Shown here: positions 30,134 through 50,940 of the stretch, piece after piece | Position numbering within the stretch: the stretch's first letter is position 1 | Layout: the number at the start of each line of letters is the position of its first letter | Origin: a bacterium | Lineage (GTDB): Bacteria; Bdellovibrionota_C; UBA2361; SZUA-149; JAEUWB01 | Length of the DNA: 64,000 nt | Direction of reading: 5' to 3' | NCBI GenBank assembly: GCA_016786595.1 | Contig: JAEUWB010000045.1 | Coordinates: 1-64,000, forward strand | Translations under genes and position numbers: made by a program | Notes under the pieces: model-generated | What the model saw: only the letters and a program-made list of their open reading frames with translations | What the model was told of the DNA's origin: nothing | The model's database searches: none

Positions 30134-30748
30134 TTGCCAGTCATACTTGGCGAGTTCAAGTTTAGATCAAGGTGCTGCAGCGATGCGCGTCTTTGCTTCT
30201 TGCGGACAGATCAACAAAGAATTACTGCACAAAACTGGTTAGCTGAGCGTGACTTGGATAATAAAACTTGGATTGCCCTTCATCCAGGAAGTGGCTCTGA
30301 ACAGAAAGCTAAGCGGCCGAGGCTGTCTGAACTTGCAATGCTGATGAATTCGAGACTGAAGTCGATGCCCAAATGAGATTTGGATGTCGTGCTTGGTTCT
30401 GAGCAGAGTGAACTTGAATCTGAGATCAGTAGCATTATCGATCGGGTATTCAAATCGCACATTCACTACATCAAAAATTTAGTGCTTTTAACTGTGCCTG
30501 CAGTGCGAGAAAAGTCGCAGTTGGTTCTTTCTGGCGATACAGGGATAGGTCATTTAGCTGCAGCTGTAGGAGCAAACTCTATTATTTTCGCTGGCGCGAC
30601 AAACGTGTGGCGCACGTTTCCTTATCGCGAGGATACAAAAATAATTTTTAAAAACCAAATATTTCAAACTACTTGCGATCAAATTTCTACTGACCTGAAT
30701 CAAGGTGAAACAAGTTTCACGATGCAGATGTTTAATGTTGTCAACTAA
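30134..30748 (+). pseudogene. Relic of a GT9 (heptosyltransferase-family) glycosyltransferase
   Basis: The conceptual translation contains WIALHPGSGSEQKAKRP and LVLSGDTGIGHLAAAVGA, the two hallmark blocks of GT9 ADP-heptose:LPS heptosyltransferases, in the right order and spacing (C-terminal nucleotide-sugar-binding half). An in-frame TGA at 30374-30376 interrupts the frame between them, and the frame resumes without a shift. The N-terminal acceptor-binding half is missing upstream. It is therefore a decayed copy, last used for LPS core or other glycan synthesis. Confidence 0.78.
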
Positions 30749-33058: not shown

Positions 33059-33200
33059 GGCGAGAAGTAGACGAGCGCAAGCTCCCCCTTAGTTCGTCCA
33101 TGGGAGTGACACATTTTGAGCTTATGCTACCTACAAGGGGAGGTTGTCATTCATAGGATAATACAGCCCCGCAGGGGGGCTTTCAAATTACCTTCTCGCC
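33059..33200 (+). ncRNA. Predicted multi-branch structured RNA upstream of the reverse transcriptase
   Basis: The intergenic segment closes with a perfect 9-bp stem, GGCGAGAAG (33059-33067) with CTTCTCGCC (33192-33200). Inside, in order, are four elements. GAGC-GCAA-GCTC (33073-33084) is a short stem capped by a GNRA tetraloop. GAGTGACA (33104-33111) pairs with TGTCATTC (33145-33152) with one wobble. ACCT/AGGT (33129-33144) is stacked within that stem. AGCCCC/GGGGCT (33165-33181) is a GC-rich hairpin. The region contains no plausible protein frame with a start signal, and the RT start follows 25 bases later. The fold was assembled by eye, not computed. Reverse transcriptases commonly have an adjacent cognate ncRNA, so this is a strong candidate for a template or cofactor RNA. 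Confidence 0.55.
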
Positions 33201-33224: not shown

Positions 33225-34535
33225 GTGAACATTTTTACCGAACTCACTACGTATGCAAACTACGATCTGTTTTTCGATCAGCTACGAGCAAAAGCATTAA
33301 AGACGCCGCGTAAATTATTTTCAAAATCACAAAATCAACCACTAACATTAGCTTGGATTTTAGATAATCAACATCTGGTTATTAAGGAAATTATTGCTGA
33401 CATACAAAGGAAAAAATATATTCCTGGGCCTGCTAGTAGTTATGAAATTGTATTAGGTAAGCGGCGTGTCTTATATCGCATGTCATGGCAAGATCGAATC
33501 ATCGAAGGCGTGCTTGCTCAAGCAATTTATCGCGCAGTCGATAACCAACTTAGTTCGCGTTTATATTCATTCCGCAAAGGACGAAGTCACTATTTAGTTG
33601 TCAAAGAACTAGCAGATTTTATTAAACTATGCAGAATGAATCGCAAAACATTGCTGATTGCCAAGTACGATATTGCAAACTATGGAGAAAATATTAATCA
33701 CAATCTATTGCGCTTAGATCTTGAAAATTACTTAGGCAATCAAGATCCTTACCTATGGTCTCTAATCGATCATTTTTTACGTCCCCAAATTAGCCTCAAT
33801 CATCAACTCATGAAGGGGTTACCAACCGGCTTTCATTTAGTACCCGTTTGTGAAAATATATATTTGAGTAAATTTGATCAAAGCTTCGACTACCTAACTG
33901 AAACCTTCTACGCACGTTTTGGCGACGACATTCTGCTCGCGACTACTGATCTGGCATTAGCACAGGAGTTACAGTCTCGCGCGGAGCATTTAATTAGAGA
34001 GCGCTGCTTAACATTAAACCAGAATAAATCATTTAAACTTGCTTTTACTTTTGATAACTCCACGCCGAGTGAAAAGAATTTTGATTACCTTGGCTTCAAT
34101 ATCAATGAGTCTGGAGAGTTGTTTATTTCAAAGCGTCGTTTGAAAGAATTTAAAACTCATTTTTGTAAATTCACAAGACGTGCTCATGCAACTAATACTC
34201 GACTACAGATGACTTCACAAGATTCATTTCAGTCACTCATACGAGCTGTTAATCGTTCTCTATGCTACGGTTCATTCAGTATATTCTTTCTTGAAATTAT
34301 TAAAAACTGCACAAATCGTAAAGCAGTGCAGCACTTGGATAGGTGGATAGCAAAAAAAACACTGATAGCGCTAAACCACGGAAGCCACGATCGAATATTT
34401 CAATGGCATCAATTTAATAACTTACGTAGGGCGGGATTAAAATCATTACTTTACGCCTTTGATACGCGCTTTCGAAATTCTAAACAGCTACGACACAGCT
34501 TCAACTCACATCTAAATCATGTTACAGATCTTTGA
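33225..34535 (+). CDS. Stand-alone reverse transcriptase
   Basis: The 436-residue protein starts at GTG 33225. RT motifs are in order. RT1/2 is VLYRMSWQDRIIEGVL then SFRKGRSHYLVVKEL; RT3 is IAKYDIANYGENINHNLL (catalytic Asp149); RT4 is KGLPTGFHLVPVCENIYLS. RT5 is YARFGDDILLATTD (Asp234, Asp235), RT6 is LTLNQNKSFKL and RT7 is FDYLGFNINESGEL. The catalytic box reads FGDD rather than the usual YxDD, but all three Asp residues are kept, so it should be active. About 135 residues follow the palm and resemble a thumb (SLIRAVNRSLCYGSFS, QHLDRWIAKK). No maturase, HNH or protease domain is seen. It overlaps the next gene by 17 bases. Confidence 0.93.
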   Translation: MNIFTELTTYANYDLFFDQLRAKALKTPRKLFSKSQNQPLTLAWILDNQHLVIKEIIADIQRKKYIPGPASSYEIVLGKRRVLYRMSWQDRIIEGVLAQAIYRAVDNQLSSRLYSFRKGRSHYLVVKELADFIKLCRMNRKTLLIAKYDIANYGENINHNLLRLDLENYLGNQDPYLWSLIDHFLRPQISLNHQLMKGLPTGFHLVPVCENIYLSKFDQSFDYLTETFYARFGDDILLATTDLALAQELQSRAEHLIRERCLTLNQNKSFKLAFTFDNSTPSEKNFDYLGFNINESGELFISKRRLKEFKTHFCKFTRRAHATNTRLQMTSQDSFQSLIRAVNRSLCYGSFSIFFLEIIKNCTNRKAVQHLDRWIAKKTLIALNHGSHDRIFQWHQFNNLRRAGLKSLLYAFDTRFRNSKQLRHSFNSHLNHVTDL

Positions 34536-36663
34536 TAAGGCCCGACAAAGCCTCACGGAGCGACTTCAACAGCGCGCTACAAAGCAAGCTCGGGGACTTC
34601 TATTAATTACAGATGGTTCGTTCAATACTTTCAAACTATTAATTTATGCTTTGTTCAGAAATCGAATCGTAATTGCCTATAAAATCGCACAACGTAGCCT
34701 AATTTTACTGGAATTTTATCTATTATATAAAGCTGCTGGCATCAGCCAGCTGCCTACATTTGCGATTATTTATTTTACACTACGCTGCTCGCGACAATTG
34801 CTGCGCAGCATCACGTTGCAGTCGCGCTACGCGATTTTATCAACTGATCAGCAAATCGATCAGCAGCTTGCTCTCAATAAGTTATACTCTCTATGTATTA
34901 CATATGGAATAATAACTGCATTTGGGATTTTACTAGCTTCAATCTATTTCGAAGCTAATACAGTGACAATCTTGCTGTGTTTAGGGTTCATTTTTTGCAT
35001 CCCCCTCGAATACGCCAGCGCTGTAATTTTATCTTTTGCATCGGTTACTAGAAGGCATCCTCGACCAACCCTTCAACTATTGATAGCATCGCTGATCCCA
35101 ATCTTTGCAATTCTCTGCGCAACCGAAGATTATGTCATCGTAACTTATATCTTCGGAGTAATTTTTAAACACTTAATAAGCGGGATTATCCTCGTTGTAT
35201 TTACTCGCGCAGCCCTCCTGCGAAAGAGGCTACATTTCCCAATTTATAGTCTCTTCGCATCACTCCATGAAGCTCGTAGACTAAACAAGAATCATCATCT
35301 ACTATTTATGCTTCCGCAGACAGTTTTATCAATTGGAATTGCACTCAGTCTGTATTCATTAAACAGTCAATCACTACTTACATACTTTATTATCCTACAA
35401 AGCAGCTTGATTTTAAGTTTCATACCCGAGAGAATTGTCTATTCCGTGAGCTTTGAAATAGCATTAGCGACAAGTCGAGCTAGGATTCTGATCGCAGAAA
35501 GACTTACGCATTACTTGAAGCGTGTAATATTCTTACTTGTCTTTACAATTCCACTGATTTACTTACTGATAGTTTGGGCAACATCTTCAGTAATTTATTC
35601 AAGCACGCTAATTCTCTTGATCATCATTTATGCACTGGGCATTGCATTAAAAAATTCTGGAATTATTTTAGCACAAGCAATCGCCAACGATAAGCTGATG
35701 CTACGATTTAGCTGGGCCAGTAGCATTTCTCTGCTAACTTGCTTTTCACTATTTATTTTATATTTGCGACCAAATATTACACTAATAATTTTTCTTGAGG
35801 CAGCAGCAAATGCCTTGATCGGATTACATTTGATTCGCGCATTTCGCCCAGTTTGTAGTCCATTACATGTTGCAGCAAAGTCAGAGTATTTTGCGGGGTG
35901 TAGCTCACCATTGAAACTCAAAGATACAAATTATCGCCACGGAATACTACTTGTAGTAGATGCCAAGTTAATCGGAGATAATCGAGCAAGATTCACTCAA
36001 GAACTTCGTTCCCATCTGAAAGTAGATCTAATCTGCTTTAGTTCATGGCTATGGTACATGCCTAGGATTTCCGCAGGTGTGTTTCCACTGCACTCTTATT
36101 CAGGTTGGTGTATAGACTGCTTTGACTTTAATTTAAACCAGCCGCTTGAAGCAAAAAAATCGCTCGAACTTAAGTCTATATACTTTAAGCAGATTCCACA
36201 TACAGCACGTAAGCAACTTCAAGAATTATCTGCCGCACTAAAACTATCTTCAGAAATTATCGAGGACTGGAAAAATCTGAATGCAAACGCCGCAGAGATG
36301 CTTTCACATCAACTCGCTCAAACTTTAACAAAACATTGTCCTATTGCTCACAAAATTTTATCTTGGCAAACAAAGACTAAGAATTGGGATTATTTAGAAT
36401 TACAAACAGCTCAGCATTTTTTAGCAAAATTTTCAGTGTCAGCTTTACCGGCTTTAAATAGCACAACCTCGATGCAAACCATTAGTTTCTACGGTCATCC
36501 ACTAATGATTATTAATGCAAATAATAAAAGTATCAGACAGATCTGTCTTGCTATTTCACTTGCACTCGAAAATTGCTACGCAGAAAATATCGAGGAAGTT
36601 TTTAATCTACTTACACTTTCACCTAGTACTACTAAAAAATATATTACTCAAACTACTCAATGA
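34519..36663 (+). CDS. MOP-flippase-like polytopic membrane protein with soluble C-terminal domain
   Basis: The 714-residue protein has about twelve hydrophobic segments in residues 45-450, arranged like MATE/MOP-superfamily lipid or polysaccharide flippases, though no diagnostic motif is certain. A soluble region of about 260 residues follows, beginning near YRHGILLVVDAKLIGDNRAR and continuing as a mixed alpha/beta domain I cannot name. The ATG lies inside the RT gene (17-base overlap) and the stop overlaps the PLD gene start as ATGA. Translation of the three genes is thus probably coupled. It may export or flip a lipid-linked molecule, or form a membrane effector or sensor. Confidence 0.72.
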   Translation: MLQIFDKARQSLTERLQQRATKQARGLLLITDGSFNTFKLLIYALFRNRIVIAYKIAQRSLILLEFYLLYKAAGISQLPTFAIIYFTLRCSRQLLRSITLQSRYAILSTDQQIDQQLALNKLYSLCITYGIITAFGILLASIYFEANTVTILLCLGFIFCIPLEYASAVILSFASVTRRHPRPTLQLLIASLIPIFAILCATEDYVIVTYIFGVIFKHLISGIILVVFTRAALLRKRLHFPIYSLFASLHEARRLNKNHHLLFMLPQTVLSIGIALSLYSLNSQSLLTYFIILQSSLILSFIPERIVYSVSFEIALATSRARILIAERLTHYLKRVIFLLVFTIPLIYLLIVWATSSVIYSSTLILLIIIYALGIALKNSGIILAQAIANDKLMLRFSWASSISLLTCFSLFILYLRPNITLIIFLEAAANALIGLHLIRAFRPVCSPLHVAAKSEYFAGCSSPLKLKDTNYRHGILLVVDAKLIGDNRARFTQELRSHLKVDLICFSSWLWYMPRISAGVFPLHSYSGWCIDCFDFNLNQPLEAKKSLELKSIYFKQIPHTARKQLQELSAALKLSSEIIEDWKNLNANAAEMLSHQLAQTLTKHCPIAHKILSWQTKTKNWDYLELQTAQHFLAKFSVSALPALNSTTSMQTISFYGHPLMIINANNKSIRQICLAISLALENCYAENIEEVFNLLTLSPSTTKKYITQTTQ

Positions 36664-38498
36664 AGGCCAGAAACATAGCAACCATAATACTCAGTGCGAT
36701 TTTGACGTGCACTATTTATGCATATTTTGCTTTCCATGCTGCTAAAAAATATTATGTAACTGTTAAGATTAGCGAGATTGAAGACCGCATAGCCTGTTCA
36801 GAAGAACTCCAGAAAACTATCCTTCTAAACGATCGCAATCATATATACGCGATACAGCTTCCAATGCTAGACTCAGGTCCCATAATTCGGGCCGATCTTG
36901 TTTGTGATAAATTTATTTCGCAACTAATACAAACCTGGAAAGCCTCTAAGCAATCAACAATTGGTTTTGAGCTTAGATCGCAGCAAGCAACTGATCGAGA
37001 AAGCTATCTAAAAGAATATCGACACGTCAGGTCAAAATTCCTTGAACAAGAGTGCCAGGCGCGAAAGTTTTGCGGATTAAGCATGCTAAACAGCCCAATA
37101 AAAAGCTGCGGCGCCCAACGAAGTAGTATCGAGAAAATACAGCCCCGCCTAACGATCCCAAATTATGAGCCTATTGAAAATGTAGAAATTAGCGTATTTC
37201 CATTCGATTCATTAGCTGACAACATCATGCGCACGATCGACCGCGTAAATCAAAGCGGAAAATCAGAAAAAATATTTGCATCCACAATGTCTTATGGGAA
37301 CTCGCTAGCTCAAGCTTGGAATGATTTTTTTCGTGAAAATCGACAACACGTCTTTCTGGCTCTAGATGCCGCTCTATCATTCTCTACATTTCAAAGTAGT
37401 TTGCTTGCTAGAGCGTATTCAGAACATCCATCGATATATATCGTCCCAATTATCGGTGGAGGCTTATTCGAATCGATTTATCACTGGAAGTTTGTTGTTC
37501 CTGAAACCTCAAATTACGCGTCTCTGTCAGGAATGAATCTTTCCTTACCCAGCCGCGCTCAATACCTTGATCTGATCTATCACTTTAGCGATGCCGAGGT
37601 TGTGCAAGAGCTACGCAGTTACTATGAGCAAATGCTTGAACACAATTGTCAACGTCGTGATGATTATCAGTGCTTAGTTGATTTCATGGTTCCAACTGTG
37701 AGTGATCAAGTCTTATTGAAAAAAATGTTCGATCGAAGCTGTGAATTATTTCTTACTCGCCAAAGTAGTTCATCAGCAGTTGCCAAATATTTCCTACAGC
37801 CACAGCTACATGACATAAGCTATTTATTGAAAACTAAAATCCGTCAGGCAAAACAGGAAATTGTTGTAGTCATGCATAAGTTTTCTGACTCTTCTCTAAT
37901 GGATGAGTTGCACAGTGCTCAGCAACGAGGAATTCGAGTTGTGGTCATTACAGGCACACATCCACGAGTAAAATCTTCTAGTCTAGTCAAAGGTCTTGTT
38001 GATTATGACAGCTTGGGAAATTCAGATCGAGGCTTCTCGCCACATATGAAAATCGTGATTTTCGATCAAACTGAATTATTCTTTGGGACTGGTAATCTTT
38101 CGCGAAATGCTTTGTCTGATTCAGCTGAACTATATGCAATTACCAAAAACCAACGCGCTATTGATTCAACACTAGCTCAAGTAAAAAATTTACTTTATTT
38201 GGCTGGAGACCAGCGATACAAAAATATTGAATCTACGCTGCCTCCGGAGCAGTGGCTTTTAATTCAGCGTCATTACTCGAGCGATCAAGCGCAAGCTGCC
38301 GCCCGAGACTTGCAGCGAGTCGCTCAATTTATTGCCCCTGGAAAATTCGTTCATGATCGACTGCGTAAAATTAATGCCGGAGCCAGACAAATCTTGGCCA
38401 ACTGCGGACTCGATCGTCTGCAAATCATTCACGAAAAAGACTTGCTTCGTTGTCAAGCTACCGCGGACATACAAACATTGGATTTGGCAACCCATTAA
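36660..38498 (+). CDS. Membrane-anchored phospholipase-D-family protein
   Basis: The 612-residue protein has an N-terminal membrane anchor (IATIILSAILTCTIYAYFA), positive side in, so the rest should be periplasmic. The second PLD motif is canonical: HMKIVIFDQTELFFGTGNLS with His462, Lys464 and Asp469. The first is HWKFVVPETSNYASLSGMNL with His275 and Lys277 but Glu282 in place of Asp. Several Cys residues in residues 110-140 could form disulfides. PLD-family enzymes cleave or transfer phosphodiesters in lipids or nucleic acids; which applies cannot be told. It is the last gene of the RT unit and converges with the giant surface-protein gene, overlapping it by 41 bases. Confidence 0.82.
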   Translation: MKARNIATIILSAILTCTIYAYFAFHAAKKYYVTVKISEIEDRIACSEELQKTILLNDRNHIYAIQLPMLDSGPIIRADLVCDKFISQLIQTWKASKQSTIGFELRSQQATDRESYLKEYRHVRSKFLEQECQARKFCGLSMLNSPIKSCGAQRSSIEKIQPRLTIPNYEPIENVEISVFPFDSLADNIMRTIDRVNQSGKSEKIFASTMSYGNSLAQAWNDFFRENRQHVFLALDAALSFSTFQSSLLARAYSEHPSIYIVPIIGGGLFESIYHWKFVVPETSNYASLSGMNLSLPSRAQYLDLIYHFSDAEVVQELRSYYEQMLEHNCQRRDDYQCLVDFMVPTVSDQVLLKKMFDRSCELFLTRQSSSSAVAKYFLQPQLHDISYLLKTKIRQAKQEIVVVMHKFSDSSLMDELHSAQQRGIRVVVITGTHPRVKSSSLVKGLVDYDSLGNSDRGFSPHMKIVIFDQTELFFGTGNLSRNALSDSAELYAITKNQRAIDSTLAQVKNLLYLAGDQRYKNIESTLPPEQWLLIQRHYSSDQAQAAARDLQRVAQFIAPGKFVHDRLRKINAGARQILANCGLDRLQIIHEKDLLRCQATADIQTLDLATH

Positions 38499-41400
38499 TA
38501 ACTGTCGTCATTGACGAATAACGCGCATCTACCTTTGTACGAATACTACGTGCCTTGGAATTATTCTTGCAGCCATTAGCGATCGTGCGAGCTAGGTTTT
38601 TAAGGCCTGCAGCTGTCGTTGACATCTCAGTAAGTGCTGGAGCGGTCTCATAGCGTGGGCAGCTAGTATTATCAGGGTCAGAAACTTGAGACGAACGTCC
38701 AGGCAATGACCAAGTTGCATTCCAAAAACGTGTGTAGAAGCCACGAGAACGTGCACGATAATTTTTAACTTGAGAAGCTGAAAGCTTTTTACAACCCCGA
38801 CCGCGAACCGAGCCAGATCGAGTCGTCTGACGCAGACGTAGCAGCTGATTGATATATTGGTCTAAAATCGCTGCACTATGGTCAACTGAAAACTGCAAGT
38901 TGACTACGTTAACATCAGGACAAGAATCGATCGCTTCTCTAAAATCAGGAATACCTGAACATCCACCATATGGGCCGCGGTCGATTACATAGGCATCATC
39001 ATGACCATCGCAATTAGCATCGATACCACTTGGAGGAATATATTGAGCGGGGTCTAAGTACTCAACGTTATCGTTTAAGCCATCATTATCGGAATCTGCA
39101 TCAAGATAATCAGGTCGACCATCGCTATCGGTATCAATTGGAGTCAAACCTGTAGCATACACGTCATCCATGCCATCTGAATTTGCATCAACTCCAGACG
39201 GTGCAAGATATGGACTACTAACTTGAGCCTCACGTCGGTCCGTAATGCCATCGCCATCAGAATCAAGATCTAAATGGTTTACTCGACCATCGCTATCAAG
39301 ATCTAAATTGCCACCAAGGAGCGTATTGGCTTGATCAATTTCCAGGGTGTTGAGAATACCATCGCCATCTATATCTACATCAGTGCTATTTGGAATACCA
39401 TCGCCATCTATATCCGCAGATGCACAGGTTCCGCTGCTCGAAGTAAAACCAAAGTCAGCATAGACTACTTCAGGTGAACCGCTATTTAAAATTACATGAT
39501 AACCCGTATAGATCTGAGAGTTATTATCTACGCCTGGAGTTCCTAAGGTTGAGACGAAGCCAGCTGGTTGCTCTACTGCAACAATATAATGGAAGGCAGA
39601 ACTTCCATCATCAATTGGAAGATCAACAAATTGATAACGCCCATCTGACCCACTAAATGTTTCATCAATCAGCTGATCTCCGGCATCAAGCACGCCATTT
39701 CTGTTAATATCCCAGTATAAGCTAACCTTGACAGACTCAAATCCACTCTCTCCGGCACCTGGCTCATATACTCCATCAGCGTCGAGATCTCTAAAAATTT
39801 GATTACCAATTGTTCCAACTGGACTGGATAAGCCGGCATCAACATCGCGGCGATTTTCGCCACTGGCTAAAGTAATTGCTGGCGAGCGCCCTGTTGTACG
39901 GTCAATGTCGCTATCCACAGAATCATCTGAACCAATATTATCAAATGTAAATCCAAGTCCCGAAGGTGGGATAACTCCCACATAGTAAGTTCCAGGTGCA
40001 AGGTTCTCAAATAGATACAAACCTGAAGCGTCAGTTTGAGTTGTAGAAATTAAATTTCCATTTGAATCATAGAGATTTACAGTGACGCCTGATAAATTGC
40101 TATCAGAACCATCTTGAATGCCGTTTGAATTAACATCTCTAAATACCCTGTCTCCGATACTAGCAGGAGCTCCAGAGCTTAAATACATTCCGGCATCGAC
40201 GGTTGTATCGTCTTCGCCTGAACTTAAATTAATTGTGGCAGTTCTTCCAGTGATTGAACTTGCGTCACTATCACGCATGTCATCGCCGCCAAAATCAGCA
40301 AAAGTAAATACGTAAAGTGAGTTAGATGGAATAAACTCTAGGCTATAATCTCCAGGGGCAAGATTGCCAAAATAGTATTCTCCGTCAGCATTTGTAATTG
40401 TTTCAGAAATCAAGGTACCGCTACCGTTGTAAAGCCTAACAGTAACTCCGGCGATACCAGTTTCACCAACATCTTGCTGACCGTTTTGATTCGTATCATA
40501 CCAAACATAGTTACCAATGCTTGCTGGGTTTAGGCCACCGCTTAAGATCAGGCCAGCATCAACCGTTTCATTATGATCACCAGCAGCTAAAGAAATAAGC
40601 GCTGTTTCTCCAGTACTTGCATCTGCGTCACTATCAGAGTCATCCGCTCCATTATCTTGAGCTGTAAAATTATAGGAAGCAGTTGGAACAAAATCGATAA
40701 TATAATCACCTGGAGCTAGTCCACCGAATTGATAAAATCCATTACCATCAGTCAGTACTTGAGCAATTTGATTGCCAAGTGAGTCAAGTAATCTCACGGT
40801 AACCCCAGCAACACCTGTCTCACCAGTATCTTGTTGCCCATTGCCATCGGTATCATACCATACGTAATTACCAATGCTTGCAGGTAAAATATTTGGAATT
40901 GAAAGCCCTGCATCAATTGTTCGATTTGATTCACCAACAGCTAGGGTAATTACTTCAGTTCGGCCAGTGCTTGTATCAGCATCCGAGTCAAAAGCATCAA
41001 GTGAATTTGAGGCTTGATCTTTAACTGAGAATTGATAAGCCCCTGTAGTTGGAGGAATAAATTCTACATAATAATCCCCTGGAGCAAGATTTAGAAATTC
41101 GTAATGACCATTACCGTCAGTTATCGTCGTGCCAAATAGAGTATTGTCTGAAAGATAAAGATTAACTGTCACACCAGCTACCCCAGGCTCATCAGCACCC
41201 TGCAATCCATCTCCATTCGTGTCGTACCAAACTGTATCGCCAAGAGAGGCTGGGTATACATAACCAAAATCACCGGTAAGGTTCGAGAAGTTAGAACTAT
41301 CTAAGGTAATCGAATATCCAGTTGCATTTTGAGAATTATTATCAACTCCTGGAGTGCCAAGTGTGTTAATCGCACCAGTTAATACTCCGGCACTATCAGT

Positions 41401-44400
41401 AACAACGACAAAGTAGTTAAAATTACTATCTCCACCATCATCATCAAGTCGTAAGTCTGCAAAAAGATAGGCTCCATTTGTGTCGGTATAAGTTTGGCTG
41501 ATTAGAATATCAATAGCAGGATTAAATGCTCCGTCGCTCGGGTCAGTGTCCTGATACAAGCTGACTTCGACATTACCGATGCCGACTTCTGCAAGATCCT
41601 TAACGCCATCACGATCAGTATCAGCAAATACCAGATTACCGATTTGACCAAGCGCTTCACCGAAGTCATTACGAATACTATTTGTGCCTTCGGCTAATTC
41701 AATATTGCGAATGCGATTGACATCAGATCCGCCTTCCTTAGACCCTAATCCATGGCCGAGAGAAGCTGTTGAACTATCGTTGGCAGTCAAGCCAATTTGA
41801 CCGCCGTTTGACCCTGTGGATCTATAACCAAGCGGTTGACTCTCCATTACATTGTAGAAACTACCATTAAAACTTGGAAGTGCAGGATATAATCCCGAAA
41901 AACTATAGTCGCCACTAGAATTTGTAATTACTGGGGCAAGCGCGACGTAATTTGCAAGTGTCGGTAGGCTACTCAGAGTAGTTCCGCCTGGCACGATTCC
42001 ATTAGAAATAAGAACCGGCAATATTTCCGTCATCGCAGAAGTATATTGAGCAGCATAAATATTTGAATCAGGACCGTAGACCCGACCAAAAATATCGAAG
42101 CCATATAAAAAGACTGGCACATTATTAATGCCCGTATCTGTTCCGCTGTCAAAAATCACATCACTATCACGGTCTACAAAAACGCTTCCTGACAAGCTTG
42201 CCAGCGTTGAAAGCGTTGGTCGAACTTGATGGTCGTCAGCATCATCAGTTAAGCTTGTTTGCGCAGTAGTTGTTGAGATCTGCACAATATTATCGATATA
42301 GGTTCCATTGGCGCTATCAATTAAAATTTGTGGATCATTATTTACACGCACTCGTAGTGCAATAGTGCCTGTCTGACCAGCTGGTAGCACAACCCCGCCT
42401 GCTGTTGTTCCGTCAGCAGAGCAAGTTACAGTTCCAATTGGACTCTCAGAGCAGGTAAGCGCTGGGCTGCCGCTAAGTTGAACTGCGCTAACAAATGTCA
42501 GCCGAGTAGCATCGTAGTTATCAACGATATAGACGTCATTGGCGTCAGTATTACCGTTATTACCATAGGAAATGAAGTACTCGAATTCTTGATTAAGATT
42601 AACCGTTGAAGGCCCAGTTTTTTGTATATACACGTTAGCCAGTGTGCCAACACGAGTATCTGCGGTGTCACAATTATCACTCTGATCAGGATCGAATGTA
42701 TCTGAAGAAATACAGACTGCGTTTCTCAACAACTCTCCACCAACAGCAGCTCCCGATAAAGTGCCGTTAAATGTAATTTGACCACATTCACCTGGCGCTA
42801 GTGATGAGCGCATGCAAGTAAACCCTGATACATTTGTGCTACAACCTACAGGCAGTGAGCCAACGTTCAGCACAAAAAAGTCAGGTATCGTATCTGCAAT
42901 AATCGGATTATCGGCTGTTGAAGGACCATCATTACAGTAGTCAATAGTATACGTGAGAGTATCGCCAGAGCCTGGAAGTGTTGCGCCGCGATCTACAGAC
43001 TTTTCGATTCGAATATCTGCCATCCGAATTGGCAGCGTATGCTGCCCGCAATTATTATTCGCGTTTGTTTCAGGTGTCTCAGTTGAAATACAAACCACAT
43101 TTCTAATTGAATTAACACTTAGGCCAGAGTCAAATACCCGGACATCAAAAGTAAAATTCGGTTGAGAATCAGTAGTATATGTTACTTGCCAAGACTTAAG
43201 TTTTGGAGTCACAGTTGTCGCGCAACCTGGTCCAGGAGTCATTGTCGCTTCAATATAGAGCTGATTGGATGGTGCTGTTACTGGTATCGCAGCCAGAGAA
43301 ATAATCCCAGAAGTAGTAGTTAAATTATTGAAGCCTGGGATTACTGTTCCGGTACTATCATATACAGAATAAGTAATATTTGAGCCTGGAGGTAATTCAG
43401 TACTGACAATCAAGTTGCCCCAAGCTAGTAAATTACCGCCAGAAGTATTGGCGATCAGAGGGCTGCGAATTGTTCCATTTAAAACATTAAATGGATAAGC
43501 AAAAACATCTGAACCTTCAGATGGATAAAGAGCGGTATTAGCATTCTGCTTCCAAATCGTATACACACAGCCATCTGGTGTTCTTTTGCTAAATTCCTCG
43601 AAAGTCGCATCTGCTGTTGGGTCGGTTTCTGCTGTTAAACTAATCTGCTGACCAGAACTCGCCCCCAAACTTCCTTCCCAACGGTAGACTTCAAATTGGC
43701 CGCTTGAATTCTCTTCCCCCCAAGATATGACTGGCTGCCCTGATGCATCATAATGGATTAATCCACCATAGCCTGATATTTTACTAACGCCCTGAGAGTT
43801 GCTGCGGCTAGTAAGTAAATATGGGCTGGCAACTGCAATATCCGTATCCCAGAAATAGATATCTGTGGATTCTCCCGCTGTTGCTGAAAATTCACCCCAT
43901 GTCGTTTGAAATTTCCCAGAGGGAGAACGTGCAGCTGAGCCAAATTGGCTAGTTCCTCCTTGAGTATCAACTAAATTTGTGATTCTAGTAGCAGGAGCAG
44001 GAGTAGAAGAATCCCAGTAAAAACGATCTAGAGATTCAACTGGAGTGGAGTTATTCTTCTCGAAAGTTATCCACGGAGTATTAGACACTGGATTAAGGAT
44101 CATTGAACTTTCGCCGCTGCGGCGATCGGTTAAAAGTCTAGCAAAACCCGAAGTAGATGTCGCATTGCTGATCAGAGTTGGAGAGTTTGCTGCTTGAGAA
44201 CTGTTCCAATAGTAGACGTCGTTATTACCCTCAATAAAGCTAATGTGAGATCTGCCAACCAAATCGGCGATCACTTCGATTTGAAAAATACTTTGTGAGC
44301 CAGCCGCGGTGTCACTTACTCGTGTTGCTGCTAGAGACGGTAGCGATGAGCTAGACCAGAAGAACAGATCGGTATGGCCAGTGCCATTTAATTTCTCAGC

Positions 44401-47400
44401 CCAATAGATGTGCGCATTGTTAGTGGTTGAAATAACCATCTCACAATTATCAATTAGCCCATCAGTAACGCTTGCATCAGTAATATCAACACCAGGCGAA
44501 GCCCCAAAGTCGCTACGATAGTAGAACATATTGTAATGCTCTCCCGCCATGAGTTCTGACCACGCCACGTGTGCGCGATCTAAGGCATCGAGCTTAAGGA
44601 GAATTACGCTTGCTGACATGCCCGTGTTTGTAGGATCTGAAATATTAATTGCAGTGCCTGCAGCCATTGTAGAATTCCAATAGAATGTATCGGAAAATAA
44701 ACCGCCAAGCTCAGTCCCAGTTGTATGCTCTTTGAATGCAATATGCGCGATGCCCGAAGGAGTCACTGCTAGGTTTAATGCACTAGCATAGCCCCGAGTT
44801 ATCCCGTGATTTGAAACTAATGTTGTAATACCGGACTGACTGTTCCAATAAAATGCATCAGTGAATTCAGCAGAATCACTATTCAATTCATCCCACAAGG
44901 CGTGGACTGTGCCATTCGCATCGATTGTAGCAGTTAATTTTCGCACCCAGCCTTCAGTTAGCGTTAAATCACTAATGCGCTGTGGAGAACCAAAAGGCAT
45001 GTCTTCATTCCAGTAGTACACATCAGCACTTTCGCCCGTCCCCGACTCCTGAATCCAGATAATGTGAGCTTTACTATTTGCATCAGTGAAGGCCCTAATG
45101 TCTGATTCGGGAATGAAATTTGCAGATGGAGCTACTTGCTGAGCTCCCCCGGCACCCATGCCATCTCTCCAGAAATAAACTGCTAACTCATTACCTGTAC
45201 TAGCTTCTGTTGCTTCAACCCAGGCGAATTTACTAACCCCATCAGCGCCAGTAAGAATTTTCATCGCGTGGGCGCTTTCATAGTCAGGATTTGATGAGTG
45301 TGCTGTAGTTAAACTATGATTAGAGAGTCGACGTGATTCACTTTGAAGAACAACTTCACCTAGATTGTCGGAGCCATTTTGCGCTCTAACCCCAGTTAGA
45401 GTTCCCGTGCTAAACTCAGCTGCCGTGCTCTGCGACCAGAAAGTTGCTGGGGCAGGAAGACCAGTAGTAAACAGCAATCGGAAGTTTGTCACTAAGCAAT
45501 CTGTCGTGCCAGCTGCACCAACCGGAACGTAGCTCCAGGTCGATCCGCCATCAGAAGAAAATTCGAGCGTCGTGCCAGCTGGCTGATTGACTTCAGCCGA
45601 TCCTATTACGTAGCATGAACCTGTAGGTATTTGCTCGACAATCGTTACGCCTTCTGCAGCAGTATTGCCAGAATTGTTATAGTTAACTGTATAACGTATT
45701 TTTTCTCCGGCATTAACTTCTGAGCTATTATTATCCTCACCACCTCCCGGAATTGCAGTCGAGCAATCGTCATCTGGTCCGCAAGCATATCCAGTTTTTG
45801 AACTAGTTACATCGCTGCGATAGACACTCACACTTGAACAATCATCATTATTTGAGCGAATGTCTTCATTCCCAACCGGAACAGCTGATTGATCGATATG
45901 CGCGCAGTTCTCAATACTCGTTGAATCAGCCACATTACTATCAATGCTAACGTAAACTTCAAACGTTCCGCGGCTACCAGGCGGCAAGCACACCCCGCTA
46001 CTTGGATTACCAAGCGTCCAAGTTAAATTACCGGAAGAATTATTAAAAACGACTGGAATTGCATCGCTAATCGGTAGGCCTGCTGGGTCAACAGCCGCCA
46101 TCGGATTGCCCGCCGAATCTACCAAGGAGATAGTTGAAAAATTATGCCCACTGCCTGCTAAGTCTAATCCGGCAGGTAGCGTATCCGTAATTGCCACATT
46201 ACAAATACGCTCAGTTCCGGAGTTACCATAGGTCATCGTATAGCTAAGCGCAGCCCCTGGAATCGTGCCAGGGAACGAACCTTCAATGCTACCAGTTTTT
46301 GTAATAAATAGATCGAACCCTGGTGTGCGGCTCGTTGCTGAAGAATTATTATTGCTCGAATTGTCATCGACGGTAGCACCGATACGAACATTGTTAACAA
46401 TCGTTGATGCAGCTGGTAACGCGATACCAGTCATTTGATCGCGAGCCTCAACCCCGATCGTGATGCTAAATGGCCCAGCATTCCCTGCTAATGAGCCAAT
46501 TACAGCTAATATATATGTCGGCTTGTAGCCAGGAGTGAAACAACCGGGCTGAGTGACCCAACCGTTCATGTTAAGCGTTGCTGGAGAAAGATCGCCCACT
46601 GCCGGCTCTCCAGTTGTAGCATCGTGGCAATATATAACTTCACCATGCGTTGCAGCAATGCTTGCCAGGGTAATATTCGCAGTGCCATCATCTCCAATGT
46701 CAGGCAATCGATCAATAAAGTAAACTCCAGTTGCAGCAATTCTCGATAGGTTTCCATACTGTAATGTGTAATTAAACGCCTGACCCGGTAAGACACTCAA
46801 AGGTCCAGCTTTACTGATATAAGGATCAGGAAGTGGTGTGCGTGTATCTTGCGTGTCGTTATTGGGGAAATTATTATCTTCAGGAATACTTGTTGAAATC
46901 GCGACACTATTAGTTAATGTTGTACCCGGAGCAACTCCAGCTTGAACTTGTCCGCGATAGCTAATCGTAATATTTTCACTATTTCCCGGAATGGTTCCTG
47001 CAGGAGTTCCAGGCGGAACAGTTGTTACAAAATTTGACCAAGTCAAATTACTCGGTGACGTAGCACACGGTCCACCGCTTTCACTTGGTCCTGTCACACT
47101 CCAATGCGCAGGTGAAATTTGCGCTGAGCCGCCAACAAAACAAACGCCAGCAGGTAAAATATCTACCAAATTCACATTCGGTGCAGCTAACTGTCCACGG
47201 TTGGCGATGATTAAAGTATAAGTTACAATTTCCCCTGGTAGTGGGTCGGTGCGACTGACAAATTTATTAACTGTTAAATCAGGCTTTTGCACCGTCACTA
47301 GATCGCTTGCTGTAATACAATAGCTATTAAGTGGGTTAGAATAACAACCTTCCACCGTATTAGTTAAGGTTGTACCAGAAGAAACAATCGTGCCATCCAC

Positions 47401-50400
47401 CGTGGCCATAATTCGAATTATGCCGCCTTCTAAAAATCCTAAGTTACTTTGGCGCAATCCGTCAGTTGGACTTCCATCTGTATCAGCAATAACAATGCGG
47501 ATCGTAGTTCCTGTAGGACCTGGCGTAACTTGGACATTGGCGTTTGCAAGAATATTGACTTGCCCTGCTGGCAGAGTGGGGTCATTTGCCAATGCTTGAG
47601 AATTCCACTCATGAGTTAGGCCGCTGATATTAACGCCAAGTGGTAGGGCGTCTGTTAAGATAACTTCTGTGTCATCCGAACCAGAATCGTTATAGTAACT
47701 AATCGACCACGTAAATGGCGTTCCAGCGCCAATAATGTCCTGATCGGAAGTTTTAGAAAGTCTTAATCCTGGCTCTGGCAATATTGTCGTAATGACTTGA
47801 TTAGAAATCGTTTGTAATAGCTGATCTGCCATAGAAGCGGCGTTATTTCGAATAATTGTGCCATCGACCGAACCTGATGTACCTGAACCTGAGCCATCAT
47901 CATCATTGGTCACATACATACCCACCTTACCTAAGGTATTTGTGGCTAATAATGGCTGAGGCAAGCTTGAGTCATCGATTTTCCAAGCTACAAATTTAAT
48001 CTGACTTGGGTTTGCATAGCTGGCAGGGGGCAACCAAACACCAGACCCAGGTTGTAGTGTTGTCAAATTAAGTGGATCTACTTCAACTCCTAAAACAAAG
48101 TAATTCGTAATATCACTGACTTGAAATTGATCAGCTGGCGAAATAGAGACTGGTAAATCTGGGTGGCCAGTTGAAAAATAAACTTTACAATCTACGCAAG
48201 AAAACACATTGCCAACTGCATCTACGGCAGGTGAAGTGTATGCAGCGCCTAGAACAGTCTTAGCTGGAACTTCGTCGACGATGTATGTATTTGTTAATGG
48301 CGAGCGACCAGCATTTCGAAAATCAATTTCATAGTGAATATCACCACCGCTACCAATCAAGGCCTCTTCCCTTGATTTAATAACTTCGATACGTGGCTCC
48401 GCATTAATTATTGTCGTCTTGGACAGCGAGCTTGCAATAGTTTGGCATCCTTCGGGATCGCTACCATTAATTAATACTCCAACTGAATATGTGGTGCCAT
48501 CAATCACTCCTGCTGGAATAGTCAGACTTAAATCAATATGTCGGATGAATGCTGCACCAGGCGGAATATCGCCCAGGCTAACAGTGACGTAACCACTTGC
48601 CAAGGTCGAGAGATCGACACTTCCTCCGGTAATTGAAGCCAATGATATGTATTGCATCACACCATTGACTAGAATCTGCGGGATATTAACCCTAACCGTA
48701 GCACCGACAATTGTGTCGGAACCAGTATTATTAATAGTAATACGATATGTTGCACTACTTTGAGAATCAACATAGTCATTACCAGTTATGATCGAAGTCG
48801 GCTCAAGTAATTCACCCAATAGAGGGTTAATTTTAGTTTTTTCTGCAGTATCGATATAACTTAAACTTGTAGTTACAAAGCCACTGTCATTATTGGCAAT
48901 CGTATTCGATGCGTTGTAAGTTCTAAAGTGGCCAATATTATTAGCCTCAGATTCCAAGCATGCATCGCCTGGAATTTCAGCTTGCACTAAAATATCTGCT
49001 GCAACATTTGATGGCACACCATCGCACAGACTGCCTGGAGCAGCTGGAAATATATTCGATGATAAACATGGAACGTATACTGCGACCCATGTTGTTTGAT
49101 TAACCGAGGTTGGTGGCGTAGTCGACCAAACACCATGATCACTTGGTGCGATTCCTGGTGTGCCACTCAATGTAAATGCAGGAGGAGAATTTGGATCTCC
49201 AAATAAGTTAGTTGTCGCATAAAACACTGTTGCCCGATACGAACTTGCAATCGAAACAGCAGCAAGGTCTAAGCCCGCTGGAATTTTATCAATATAAACA
49301 TTGTCATATAAGTTAACTGGTCCTGCATTTGTCTGATAGAGAATATACTTAAAAGTTTCCCCGTGATTAACGAAGCGGATTTCATTATCGTTCACACCAG
49401 CTCTAGTTTCACGAAAACCACGAATTTCTTCACCTTTGGCATACGCGCCATTTGGCGCAAGATTCAAACCAAATTTAACATTTCGACTTGCTGATATTTG
49501 ATTAATATTATCTGCAGTCAGAGAGACGTTGTTATTAACAATTGTTCCATCAGCAATTGGACGCGATAAACAAGTGCTATAATCAACCGTAAAACTTACT
49601 GTTCGAGTCGAGCCAACGCTCAGATGATTATTCGTAAAATCCCATTGAATATACTCTGCTCCAAGTGTTGACGAATTAAGCACGCCACTAGATGAAATAT
49701 TTGTAAATGCGCTAGCTGGTGATGCCATGTTACAGCCGCCAGCAGCGGAACTGCGTAAAATCGAAAAAATATGAGACACATCGTCGCGAACAATTGGATC
49801 AAATATTGTTTCCTTGTCAGTTGGACCAAAGGTGTTTTCGATATCAATTTGATAAGTCACCTGACCATTGTAACCACTGCCATTATAAACGATGCGATCC
49901 GTCCCAAGATTAACTGCGCCCAATGCTTCCTTCCTAATTTTTGGTGTAGGAGTTGAAGTTAGGTTCGTCGCGCAAGGCTGATTTCCTGGTAGCGAGGGAT
50001 TGCTATCGCTTACCGCTAACTCAGCATCCGCCGAATCAACAAAGGCTTGATAATTCCACGCTGTATTATTTTGCACACCATTATTACTACGAACTGTAAA
50101 GCGCAATAAGCTGGAAGACCCCTCTGCTTCTGGACCTAAGTCCCAATATACAGAATTCGCTGGAATGTTTATCCCACGGACAGTTAGGCCTGTAGATGTA
50201 TAGAGCCCGCCATTTGTTGCAGATACAAATGTTGCGCTAGCATCCTGCCCATATGCATCAGTCACCCCACTTGGTAGCGGAACCCATACAATTACACCGT
50301 TCGATGAAACATATGAAACGGAATAACGCACGTCATATGTTATATTAGTCCCAACTCCTTTGGTCGCAGGACAGGTAATAGAAGAAAGAAACACTGGCAA

Positions 50401-50940
50401 TGGCACCCAACGAAAAGTTAAATCGTCGACACTTGGCGCTGGGCCACTGTTATCCCGCAAGGTAATTTGCGCACGAATACAGGGATAAGTATTTTTATTA
50501 ATCCCGCTTAGATTAACCTTACCACCAACGATCGGAGCTGGATTTGGCACTCCGGTAACTGGATTTGTTGTGCCGCATTCAATGATGCGGGCTTCAATAT
50601 CAGCAGGAAAAGAAGTAATCGAATCGATTTCAAGTTCTGTCCATGCCGAGAAAGAAGGTGGCCGGACTTCAGCTGTTGTAAATGTGCCACTAGTAAAACT
50701 ACCCGCTGTATTCAGTACCACACGACCACTGCTAAACTGTAAGTTAGACGCATTCGGTGGTAACTCACTTAAAGAGGGTGTAAGGCCAACAAGATTGGAT
50801 AAATCAATACTGAGATAGCCGTTATTATTATCTTGAGTAATGTCAGCAAATGCAGTCGATGGAGCGAATAAGCTTGCTGCGATAATCGAAACTGCTAGAA
50901 CAAATAATTTGTGAATGAAAATAGTTCTACTAAATGACAT
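38458..50940 (-). CDS. Giant secreted surface protein with DUF11, YWN, SdrD-B and TSP3-like repeats
   Basis: The 4160-residue protein has a signal peptide ending AFA-D at about residue 32. Residues 180-1780 and 2550-2900 hold many DUF11-type beta-sandwich repeats (NTGSDTIVGATVRVNIP and similar). Residues about 1890-2500 hold more than ten repeats of about 45 residues with AHIxWxE and DxFYWNS motifs, probably a beta-propeller-like array. Residues about 2910-3840 contain seven SdrD-B/Cna-B-like domains (IGNYVWYDTDGNGQQDTGET). Residues about 3840-3980 are calcium-binding TSP3-like repeats (DIDGDGIPNSTDVDIDGDG). The C-terminal 180 residues are basic with several Cys. No LPXTG, autotransporter barrel or T9SS sorting tail was recognised. 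It is likely a cell-surface adhesin or fibre. Confidence 0.88.
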   Translation of the reverse strand: MSFSRTIFIHKLFVLAVSIIAASLFAPSTAFADITQDNNNGYLSIDLSNLVGLTPSLSELPPNASNLQFSSGRVVLNTAGSFTSGTFTTAEVRPPSFSAWTELEIDSITSFPADIEARIIECGTTNPVTGVPNPAPIVGGKVNLSGINKNTYPCIRAQITLRDNSGPAPSVDDLTFRWVPLPVFLSSITCPATKGVGTNITYDVRYSVSYVSSNGVIVWVPLPSGVTDAYGQDASATFVSATNGGLYTSTGLTVRGINIPANSVYWDLGPEAEGSSSLLRFTVRSNNGVQNNTAWNYQAFVDSADAELAVSDSNPSLPGNQPCATNLTSTPTPKIRKEALGAVNLGTDRIVYNGSGYNGQVTYQIDIENTFGPTDKETIFDPIVRDDVSHIFSILRSSAAGGCNMASPASAFTNISSSGVLNSSTLGAEYIQWDFTNNHLSVGSTRTVSFTVDYSTCLSRPIADGTIVNNNVSLTADNINQISASRNVKFGLNLAPNGAYAKGEEIRGFRETRAGVNDNEIRFVNHGETFKYILYQTNAGPVNLYDNVYIDKIPAGLDLAAVSIASSYRATVFYATTNLFGDPNSPPAFTLSGTPGIAPSDHGVWSTTPPTSVNQTTWVAVYVPCLSSNIFPAAPGSLCDGVPSNVAADILVQAEIPGDACLESEANNIGHFRTYNASNTIANNDSGFVTTSLSYIDTAEKTKINPLLGELLEPTSIITGNDYVDSQSSATYRITINNTGSDTIVGATVRVNIPQILVNGVMQYISLASITGGSVDLSTLASGYVTVSLGDIPPGAAFIRHIDLSLTIPAGVIDGTTYSVGVLINGSDPEGCQTIASSLSKTTIINAEPRIEVIKSREEALIGSGGDIHYEIDFRNAGRSPLTNTYIVDEVPAKTVLGAAYTSPAVDAVGNVFSCVDCKVYFSTGHPDLPVSISPADQFQVSDITNYFVLGVEVDPLNLTTLQPGSGVWLPPASYANPSQIKFVAWKIDDSSLPQPLLATNTLGKVGMYVTNDDDGSGSGTSGSVDGTIIRNNAASMADQLLQTISNQVITTILPEPGLRLSKTSDQDIIGAGTPFTWSISYYNDSGSDDTEVILTDALPLGVNISGLTHEWNSQALANDPTLPAGQVNILANANVQVTPGPTGTTIRIVIADTDGSPTDGLRQSNLGFLEGGIIRIMATVDGTIVSSGTTLTNTVEGCYSNPLNSYCITASDLVTVQKPDLTVNKFVSRTDPLPGEIVTYTLIIANRGQLAAPNVNLVDILPAGVCFVGGSAQISPAHWSVTGPSESGGPCATSPSNLTWSNFVTTVPPGTPAGTIPGNSENITISYRGQVQAGVAPGTTLTNSVAISTSIPEDNNFPNNDTQDTRTPLPDPYISKAGPLSVLPGQAFNYTLQYGNLSRIAATGVYFIDRLPDIGDDGTANITLASIAATHGEVIYCHDATTGEPAVGDLSPATLNMNGWVTQPGCFTPGYKPTYILAVIGSLAGNAGPFSITIGVEARDQMTGIALPAASTIVNNVRIGATVDDNSSNNNSSATSRTPGFDLFITKTGSIEGSFPGTIPGAALSYTMTYGNSGTERICNVAITDTLPAGLDLAGSGHNFSTISLVDSAGNPMAAVDPAGLPISDAIPVVFNNSSGNLTWTLGNPSSGVCLPPGSRGTFEVYVSIDSNVADSTSIENCAHIDQSAVPVGNEDIRSNNDDCSSVSVYRSDVTSSKTGYACGPDDDCSTAIPGGGEDNNSSEVNAGEKIRYTVNYNNSGNTAAEGVTIVEQIPTGSCYVIGSAEVNQPAGTTLEFSSDGGSTWSYVPVGAAGTTDCLVTNFRLLFTTGLPAPATFWSQSTAAEFSTGTLTGVRAQNGSDNLGEVVLQSESRRLSNHSLTTAHSSNPDYESAHAMKILTGADGVSKFAWVEATEASTGNELAVYFWRDGMGAGGAQQVAPSANFIPESDIRAFTDANSKAHIIWIQESGTGESADVYYWNEDMPFGSPQRISDLTLTEGWVRKLTATIDANGTVHALWDELNSDSAEFTDAFYWNSQSGITTLVSNHGITRGYASALNLAVTPSGIAHIAFKEHTTGTELGGLFSDTFYWNSTMAAGTAINISDPTNTGMSASVILLKLDALDRAHVAWSELMAGEHYNMFYYRSDFGASPGVDITDASVTDGLIDNCEMVISTTNNAHIYWAEKLNGTGHTDLFFWSSSSLPSLAATRVSDTAAGSQSIFQIEVIADLVGRSHISFIEGNNDVYYWNSSQAANSPTLISNATSTSGFARLLTDRRSGESSMILNPVSNTPWITFEKNNSTPVESLDRFYWDSSTPAPATRITNLVDTQGGTSQFGSAARSPSGKFQTTWGEFSATAGESTDIYFWDTDIAVASPYLLTSRSNSQGVSKISGYGGLIHYDASGQPVISWGEENSSGQFEVYRWEGSLGASSGQQISLTAETDPTADATFEEFSKRTPDGCVYTIWKQNANTALYPSEGSDVFAYPFNVLNGTIRSPLIANTSGGNLLAWGNLIVSTELPPGSNITYSVYDSTGTVIPGFNNLTTTSGIISLAAIPVTAPSNQLYIEATMTPGPGCATTVTPKLKSWQVTYTTDSQPNFTFDVRVFDSGLSVNSIRNVVCISTETPETNANNNCGQHTLPIRMADIRIEKSVDRGATLPGSGDTLTYTIDYCNDGPSTADNPIIADTIPDFFVLNVGSLPVGCSTNVSGFTCMRSSLAPGECGQITFNGTLSGAAVGGELLRNAVCISSDTFDPDQSDNCDTADTRVGTLANVYIQKTGPSTVNLNQEFEYFISYGNNGNTDANDVYIVDNYDATRLTFVSAVQLSGSPALTCSESPIGTVTCSADGTTAGGVVLPAGQTGTIALRVRVNNDPQILIDSANGTYIDNIVQISTTTAQTSLTDDADDHQVRPTLSTLASLSGSVFVDRDSDVIFDSGTDTGINNVPVFLYGFDIFGRVYGPDSNIYAAQYTSAMTEILPVLISNGIVPGGTTLSSLPTLANYVALAPVITNSSGDYSFSGLYPALPSFNGSFYNVMESQPLGYRSTGSNGGQIGLTANDSSTASLGHGLGSKEGGSDVNRIRNIELAEGTNSIRNDFGEALGQIGNLVFADTDRDGVKDLAEVGIGNVEVSLYQDTDPSDGAFNPAIDILISQTYTDTNGAYLFADLRLDDDGGDSNFNYFVVVTDSAGVLTGAINTLGTPGVDNNSQNATGYSITLDSSNFSNLTGDFGYVYPASLGDTVWYDTNGDGLQGADEPGVAGVTVNLYLSDNTLFGTTITDGNGHYEFLNLAPGDYYVEFIPPTTGAYQFSVKDQASNSLDAFDSDADTSTGRTEVITLAVGESNRTIDAGLSIPNILPASIGNYVWYDTDGNGQQDTGETGVAGVTVRLLDSLGNQIAQVLTDGNGFYQFGGLAPGDYIIDFVPTASYNFTAQDNGADDSDSDADASTGETALISLAAGDHNETVDAGLILSGGLNPASIGNYVWYDTNQNGQQDVGETGIAGVTVRLYNGSGTLISETITNADGEYYFGNLAPGDYSLEFIPSNSLYVFTFADFGGDDMRDSDASSITGRTATINLSSGEDDTTVDAGMYLSSGAPASIGDRVFRDVNSNGIQDGSDSNLSGVTVNLYDSNGNLISTTQTDASGLYLFENLAPGTYYVGVIPPSGLGFTFDNIGSDDSVDSDIDRTTGRSPAITLASGENRRDVDAGLSSPVGTIGNQIFRDLDADGVYEPGAGESGFESVKVSLYWDINRNGVLDAGDQLIDETFSGSDGRYQFVDLPIDDGSSAFHYIVAVEQPAGFVSTLGTPGVDNNSQIYTGYHVILNSGSPEVVYADFGFTSSSGTCASADIDGDGIPNSTDVDIDGDGILNTLEIDQANTLLGGNLDLDSDGRVNHLDLDSDGDGITDRREAQVSSPYLAPSGVDANSDGMDDVYATGLTPIDTDSDGRPDYLDADSDNDGLNDNVEYLDPAQYIPPSGIDANCDGHDDAYVIDRGPYGGCSGIPDFREAIDSCPDVNVVNLQFSVDHSAAILDQYINQLLRLRQTTRSGSVRGRGCKKLSASQVKNYRARSRGFYTRFWNATWSLPGRSSQVSDPDNTSCPRYETAPALTEMSTTAAGLKNLARTIANGCKNNSKARSIRTKVDARYSSMTTVINGLPNPMFVCPR
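39400..42210 (-). repeat. Tandem SdrD-B-domain coding repeats
   Basis: Seven tandem repeats encode blocks beginning IGN/LGD-x-V-W/F-x-D-x-x-x-D-G and containing GVTVxLY, about 110-140 residues each. DNA-level similarity is obvious between central copies, for example ACCAATGCTTGC recurring at about 40515 and 40872, suggesting recent duplication or gene conversion. Confidence 0.75.
43440..45280 (-). repeat. Region of YWN-type protein repeats
   Basis: Translated segments repeatedly show AHIxW/F-x-E followed by D-x-FYWNS or D-VYYWN every 40-50 residues, for example TDAFYWNSQSG, SDTFYWNSTM, TDLFFWSSS and DVYYWNSSQ. The spacing suits propeller blades. DNA identity between copies is low, so these are old repeats. 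Confidence 0.6.

Follow-up and report, generated by a model that had tools for sequence, protein, structure and literature searches.

The segment between positions 33059 and 33200 of the window (the whole 64,000-nucleotide stretch of bacterial DNA that was analysed) probably encodes a structured noncoding RNA (ncRNA) that works with the reverse transcriptase (RT) encoded directly downstream, within an uncharacterised system of RT, ncRNA and membrane protein. The RNA is probably the partner of the RT, since RNAs of this group accompany an unclassified RT and a transporter-like protein in several phyla, and it may also be its template. Unforeseen kinds of DNA synthesis have come to light more than once through RTs that have an ncRNA of their own, as in retrons, DRT2, DRT9, DRT10 and DRT3. 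What appears to be new here is an unclassified, multi-phylum RT clade with a covarying RNA of its own, found in arrays and in trans, whose protein partner is a transporter-like membrane protein and neither a known toxin nor a small pore protein. A concrete RNA with boundaries and partner genes is now available for experiment, and the system is relevant to the question of how the products of RTs might affect membranes.

Predicted structure of the RNA in the window

The RNA lies on the forward strand and is closed by a 9-bp stem. Its arms, GGCGAGAAG (33059-33067) and CTTCTCGCC (33192-33200), pair without a mismatch and have 124 nt between them; an earlier, sequence-only reading had called them perfectly complementary, at a spacing of 125. 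The mean pair probability of the closing stem is 0.97, likewise when the whole spacer is folded. The 142-nt RNA folds with an energy of -51.7 kcal/mol (z = -3.4) and was equalled by one of 200 dinucleotide shuffles; in a repeat of the test z was -3.1 and none of 100 shuffles was as good. Inside the closing stem, the GNRA-capped stem and the 6-bp GC-rich hairpin of the earlier reading were both borne out, the former as the first hairpin GAGC-GCAA-GCTC (33073-33084; pair probability 0.77), which has GCAA-capped counterparts in the RNAs of loci L028 and L032, and the latter as AGCCCC-GCAGG-GGGGCT (33165-33181; pair probability 0.93). The 8-bp stem assigned to the second branch (33104-33152, pairing 33104-33111 with 33145-33152) turned out not to be dominant: its pair probability is 0.36 and the fold that contains it reaches -50.0 against -51.7 kcal/mol, a cost of 1.7 kcal/mol, so that it represents a minority state beside a competing fold. 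From the last hairpin to the 3' arm runs an unpaired A/U-rich stretch, TTCAAATTAC (33182-33191), and the RNA ends about 24-25 nt before the GTG start codon of the RT.

It had also been claimed that nested stems of this quality exceed chance. This holds for the fold as a whole, as the z-scores show, and is much less clear for single helices, as the best long-range helix of the window, taken alone, has a p of about 0.03 and is formed by AAGCTCCCC and GGGGGGCTT and not by the closing stem. Rfam gave no match for the window or for seven related loci, and a promoter scan gave no separate match upstream of the RNA. By itself, the sequence of the window makes a suggestive and not a conclusive case for the RNA; the proposal that it is the ncRNA partner of the RT draws on its fold z-score together with the equivalent RNAs that precede homologous RTs.

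The reverse transcriptase and its clade

The RT gene (33225-34535, forward strand) starts with GTG and encodes 436 amino acids, with an RVT_1 match of 2.3e-18 and YARFGDD as motif C. Residues D149, D234 and D235 are invariant in 28 aligned family members, and the RT is catalytically complete in most of the family. In a tree with a limited choice of outgroup, namely 21 sampled RTs, 30 homologues fell on one side of a branch with 100/100 support. The window RT clusters with those of L021, L022 and L024 (support 92/72), the L-numbers denoting loci of related RTs or RNAs. Homologues were found in the window's own class, in Bdellovibrionota, in Myxococcota and in gammaproteobacteria, and the distant members of the clade belong to Oligoflexia/Bdellovibrionota, Myxococcota and Coxiellaceae-like MAGs. 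The clade is rare, being present in 5 of 46 genomes of the window's class, 3 of 379 of one phylum (seed genome counted), 8 of 58 and 8 of 36 of two further groups, and 2 of 369 of a gammaproteobacterial sample. No relatives of the RT were found on the viral contigs, phages or plasmids searched. The window RT scores far under every curated RT cut-off in NCBIfam, and many PADLOC RT models match it alike. As judged from these comparisons, the clade is unclassified and spread over several phyla.

Equivalent RNAs at related loci

Most RTs of the family are preceded by a long helix whose end lies 8-60 nt ahead of the start codon. The long-range helices upstream of 28 family RT genes were compared with those upstream of 90 control gene starts drawn from the same loci, and the median z was -2.2 as against +0.2 (Mann-Whitney p = 8e-6 for helix strength). 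The closing stems are unrelated in sequence from locus to locus, with GGCGAGAAG in the window, TGGGCCATGGTG in L021, TGCCGGGCAAC in L022, GCTACCCTGGTGA in L031, TGAAGGAGCGA and GCGGGGGTGCG in L078 and L079, and CATGGGATTAAG in L133; that stems with nothing in common in sequence close an RNA in the same position ahead of distantly related RTs speaks for the sequence-only reading. In the three nearest relatives of the window (L021, L022 and L024), the closing stem is likewise in the same place. The folding z of 27 family RNAs ranges from -1.1 to -6.3, and the individual helices of L024, L029 and L077 are non-significant. Many of the RNAs have a second stem with a YGCG-type loop, for example GACTGCGGTC, GAAGTTGCGGCTT and GACGTTGCGGCGT; the RNAs of L021, L022 and the window do not have it. 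In a set of 30 RNAs, pairing is scarcer in the 12 nt that immediately precede the 3' arm than elsewhere (p = 0.0007), and the seven RNAs aligned as described below resemble one another more in their 5' part (57%) than in their 3' part (41%).

The position of the RNA is not fixed. Copies are found downstream of the RT in L080 (two, 4183-4546) and L081 (three, 4427-5342), in tandem and divergent from one another; the 3' parts of these array copies were seen to diverge more than their 5' parts. L030 and L085 each have one RNA downstream of the membrane-protein gene, while in L023, and weakly in L025, the helix is further upstream. One genome, G571, carries a copy (L113 1448-1570, G571:C2) in RT-free surroundings, its only RT of the clade being on another contig. 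Upstream of the L080b, L081 and L113 copies, TGCTATAAT was noticed by eye, though it was not confirmed by the promoter scan. That the RNA is encoded upstream, downstream, in arrays or unlinked argues that it acts in trans and is more than a leader. No such RNA was found beside the RT in L072, L082, L084 and L086. As a separate observation, the RT and membrane-protein genes of L082, L083, L084 and L086 share the same surroundings, being preceded by genes for an MFS transporter and a tRNA-nucleotidyltransferase-like protein, and have no adjacent ncRNA; two of these genomes have a second RT locus with ncRNA arrays. In L022 (4030-5952, reverse strand), upstream of the RT locus, ORF ends are duplicated and a short stretch, WPSVRGYFLSNSL, is repeated.

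Covariation and co-occurrence with the RT

MAFFT failed on the 3' closing arms of divergent RNAs, and a covariance model was therefore seeded from two alignable RNAs and then extended. In 328 kb, the two-RNA model gave matches at the expected places in L080 (L080a/b, about 1e-8) and also at the predicted places in L079, from another phylum (E 0.0065), and L085 (E 0.021); a second model additionally matched L078 (0.0041). In the resulting seven-RNA alignment, which leans towards pairing as it was fitted to the structure, 98% of cells were paired; shuffled controls gave 77% and slid controls no more than 48%. Both sides had changed in 20 of 24 pairs, among them all nine pairs of the closing stem. 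The bias from fitting is limited by the slid controls and by the independent positions of the matches. Compensatory change in homologues had been named beforehand as the decisive test; it was thus obtained for the family, and it does not extend to the window RNA, which has no close homologue. The covariance models miss the window RNA and most GC-rich members, so that its membership of the family rests on position and architecture, and its stem is supported by its fold energy, by where it lies and by the architecture that it shares with the family.

The second model matched 5 of 45 genomes, all five of them RT-carriers. Among 36 genomes of one order, RNA matches were found in four of eight RT-carriers, a count that is partly circular, some of these RNAs having gone into the model, and in none of the 28 genomes that lack the RT, an absence that is unaffected by the circularity. 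The proposed link between RNA and RT is thus supported by co-occurrence.

Operon partners and genomic setting

The RT gene overlaps by 17 bp with a gene for a polytopic membrane protein of 714 amino acids (34519-36663, forward strand) with 10 predicted membrane segments and a putative MOP-type transporter fold. This in turn overlaps by 4 bp with a gene (36660-38498, forward strand) for a 612-amino-acid protein with a PLD-like domain (PLDc_2, 8.8e-17) and one predicted N-terminal membrane segment. The PLD protein has an aligned equivalent as third gene in L021, L022 and L024, the window's RT group, and the genes for RT and polytopic membrane protein are adjacent in every locus that shows both.

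The membrane protein of L033 is named by no Pfam or PDB sequence match. Its structural model (pLDDT 84, pTM 0.80) has best PDB matches that all belong to the MOP superfamily (MATE 7e-6, WzxE 1.5e-5, ranging to 2e-5), with a TM-score of 0.65 on the target for WzxE and MurJ lower in the list; about 200 C-terminal residues lie outside the MOP fold. On this model, the L033 protein can be assigned with confidence to the MOP-superfamily transporter fold (MATE/WzxE/MurJ). The model of the window protein is of low confidence (pLDDT 46), and its best 49 PDB matches are all MATE, MurJ or WzxE (best E 0.002). Comparison of the window-clade membrane proteins with the others by hhalign gave an E of 0.0003 at a probability of 41%, and a plain HMM search gave no connection, so that the modelled window protein can be linked weakly to the L033-type protein and the MOP fold.

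The upstream neighbour of the system in the window is a gene for a PMT-like membrane protein, and the other neighbours are mostly housekeeping, with a T2SSE-type ATPase, an acetyl-CoA synthetase-like protein and a DEAD helicase. In a PADLOC scan of nine neighbours, the helicase and the ATPase alone matched, as generic helicase and ATPase domains would. A gene for a surface protein of 4160 amino acids with DUF11 and SdrD_B repeats (38458-50940, reverse strand) is convergent with the PLD gene and overlaps its end. Two ORFs in different frames (30134-30376 and 30380-30748) look by eye like one frameshift-split glycosyltransferase family 9 gene. In Myxococcota, Bdellovibrionota and Oligoflexia loci, the gene directly upstream encodes a secreted protein whose C-terminal domain, about 280 residues long, is conserved between loci, and whose N-terminal part varies (EGF, collagen-like, Ig-like). 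Genes for such secreted proteins or lipoproteins lie immediately 5' of the RT operon or beside it in L028, L029, L030, L031, L071, L073 and L076-L079, with tandem paralogues in L071 and L078; a secreted protein with the 280-residue domain is absent from the window. Absence from phages and plasmids together with housekeeping neighbours is unusual for a mobile defence system.

Alternative explanations

A cis-acting 5' UTR leader (attenuator, RNA thermometer or riboswitch-like) that controls the RT operon alone would fit the position of the RNA, 8-60 nt before the RT start codon in most loci including the window, and the lack of a separate promoter match ahead of the window RNA. It would not account for the two or three copies that follow the RT gene in L080 and L081, for the single RNAs beyond the membrane-protein gene in L030 and L085, or for the G571 copy on a separate contig with no RT nearby; TGCTATAAT ahead of the L080b, L081 and L113 copies also counts against it, as seen by eye and unconfirmed by the promoter scan. 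A leader is hence considered unlikely. That the fold in the window arose by chance, unconnected with the RNAs of the other loci, is very improbable: the modest p of its best helix and the failure of the covariance models to find it are outweighed by the z of -3.1 to -3.4, a stem placed as in L021, L022 and L024, and the same order of elements.

Two known kinds of retroelement were also weighed. The 9-bp inverted repeats that close the RNA near an RT recall the a1/a2 repeats of a retron, in which case the RNA would be an msr-msd giving branched msDNA; its size of 140 nt, the long terminal inverted repeats directly before the RT and the more variable 3' half would all agree. The RT signatures do not, with NAxxH lacking in 30 of 30 members and VTG in 28 of 30, and the NCBIfam score is 32.7 against a cut-off of 235. 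With retron profiles of PADLOC and PDB matching poorly and no known retron partner gene present, the retron label was rejected and is distinctly improbable. In a diversity-generating retroelement (DGR), the RNA region would be a template repeat that varies a nearby surface-protein gene, for which the secreted protein gene upstream of the RT in several groups, twice with tandem paralogues, might be a target. Searches by 60-nt matching that tolerated change at every A and by local alignment yielded paralogous genes alone and no template/variable repeat pair; the window RNA is single-copy in its own genome, and motif B of the RT lacks the SQ motif, reading GLPTGFHLVPVCENIY in the window. A DGR was accordingly set aside as extremely improbable.

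Proposed working of the system

For an ncRNA that works with the RT, the following scheme can be proposed. The conserved 5' half, comprising the closing stem, the first hairpin and the second stem, which is often YGCG/YYGCGG-capped, would bind the RT, and the variable 3' part beside the 3' arm of the closing stem would be copied into cDNA. In the window, the unpaired TTCAAATTAC, which follows the stable GC-rich hairpin and leads up to the 3' arm, would be the best candidate for a template; neither a template motif nor an A-B-A' repeat was identified. The cDNA, or an RNA-protein complex, might then control the MOP-transporter-like membrane protein and, in the clade of the window, the PLD protein. 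Control of the membrane protein is proposed by analogy to DRT10 and its SLATT membrane protein.

Since phages, plasmids and viral contigs yielded no relatives and the window's neighbours are mostly housekeeping genes, there is room for a role other than defence. A more speculative, rather unlikely reading is that of a new kind of retroelement, in which several trans-acting ncRNAs would be copied by the RT and the product handled or sensed by a transporter of the MOP superfamily (MATE/Wzx/MurJ-like) that carries an extra C-terminal domain. Reverse transcription would then be coupled not to antiphage killing but to export or to the flipping of lipids or polymers, and in certain phyla also to a secreted protein.

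Comparison with known RT systems

By profile, the nearest RT domains are those of group II intron and CRISPR-associated RTs (group II, 102.8 bits), and the best PDB match is the GsI-IIC RT; yet the score is under the cut-off of 300 and no intron RNA was found with Rfam, and the group II intron was rejected. The named DRTs were rejected likewise (Drt3a 71.4 against 200, Drt2 58.4 against 390, and no match of the Drt4 profile to the window RT). The UG26 profile ranks high, with 95 bits for the window RT, but it is unspecific, scoring 92-130 bits on many RTs of one phylum, and the match was not taken as a sign of UG26 membership. The myRT survey counts 88 RTs as unclassified, 46 of which resemble a Legionella longbeachae RT (PMC8934634), CBJ12261.1. 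Legionella is gammaproteobacterial and related to the Coxiellaceae-like hosts found here, and these RTs may be kin to the present clade. No description of such a system was found in the open-access papers searched.

Likeness to retrons lies in the terminal inverted repeats, the RT directly downstream and the variable 3' part, the difference being an RT that lacks retron signatures and scores under the cut-offs. In DRT9 and DRT2, which belong to the class 2 UG RTs, the ncRNA is encoded immediately 5' of the RT (PMC12483538). The window resembles them in having its RNA just upstream and in that its RT matches by profile a PDB group that includes DRT2; it differs in a Drt2 score far under the cut-off, in showing no U-rich template and in having extra operon genes.

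DRT10 (UG17) has an RT and an adjacent ncRNA of about 140 nt, made up of a large stem with smaller stem-loops and a poorly conserved template part, together with a SLATT membrane protein, the control of which has been proposed (PMC12632851). The window shares the RT, the adjacent multi-stem ncRNA of about 140 nt and the membrane protein. In contrast to DRT10, its RT scores 69 bits with the UG17 profile, below a generic RT model, the membrane protein is MOP-transporter-like (as modelled in a relative) and not a small SLATT protein, and the clade was not seen on phages or plasmids. Since the labels of retron, DGR, group II intron and named DRT each fail, the system would be an unnamed member of the ncRNA-linked domesticated RT systems, and by analogy its working plan is most like that of DRT10.
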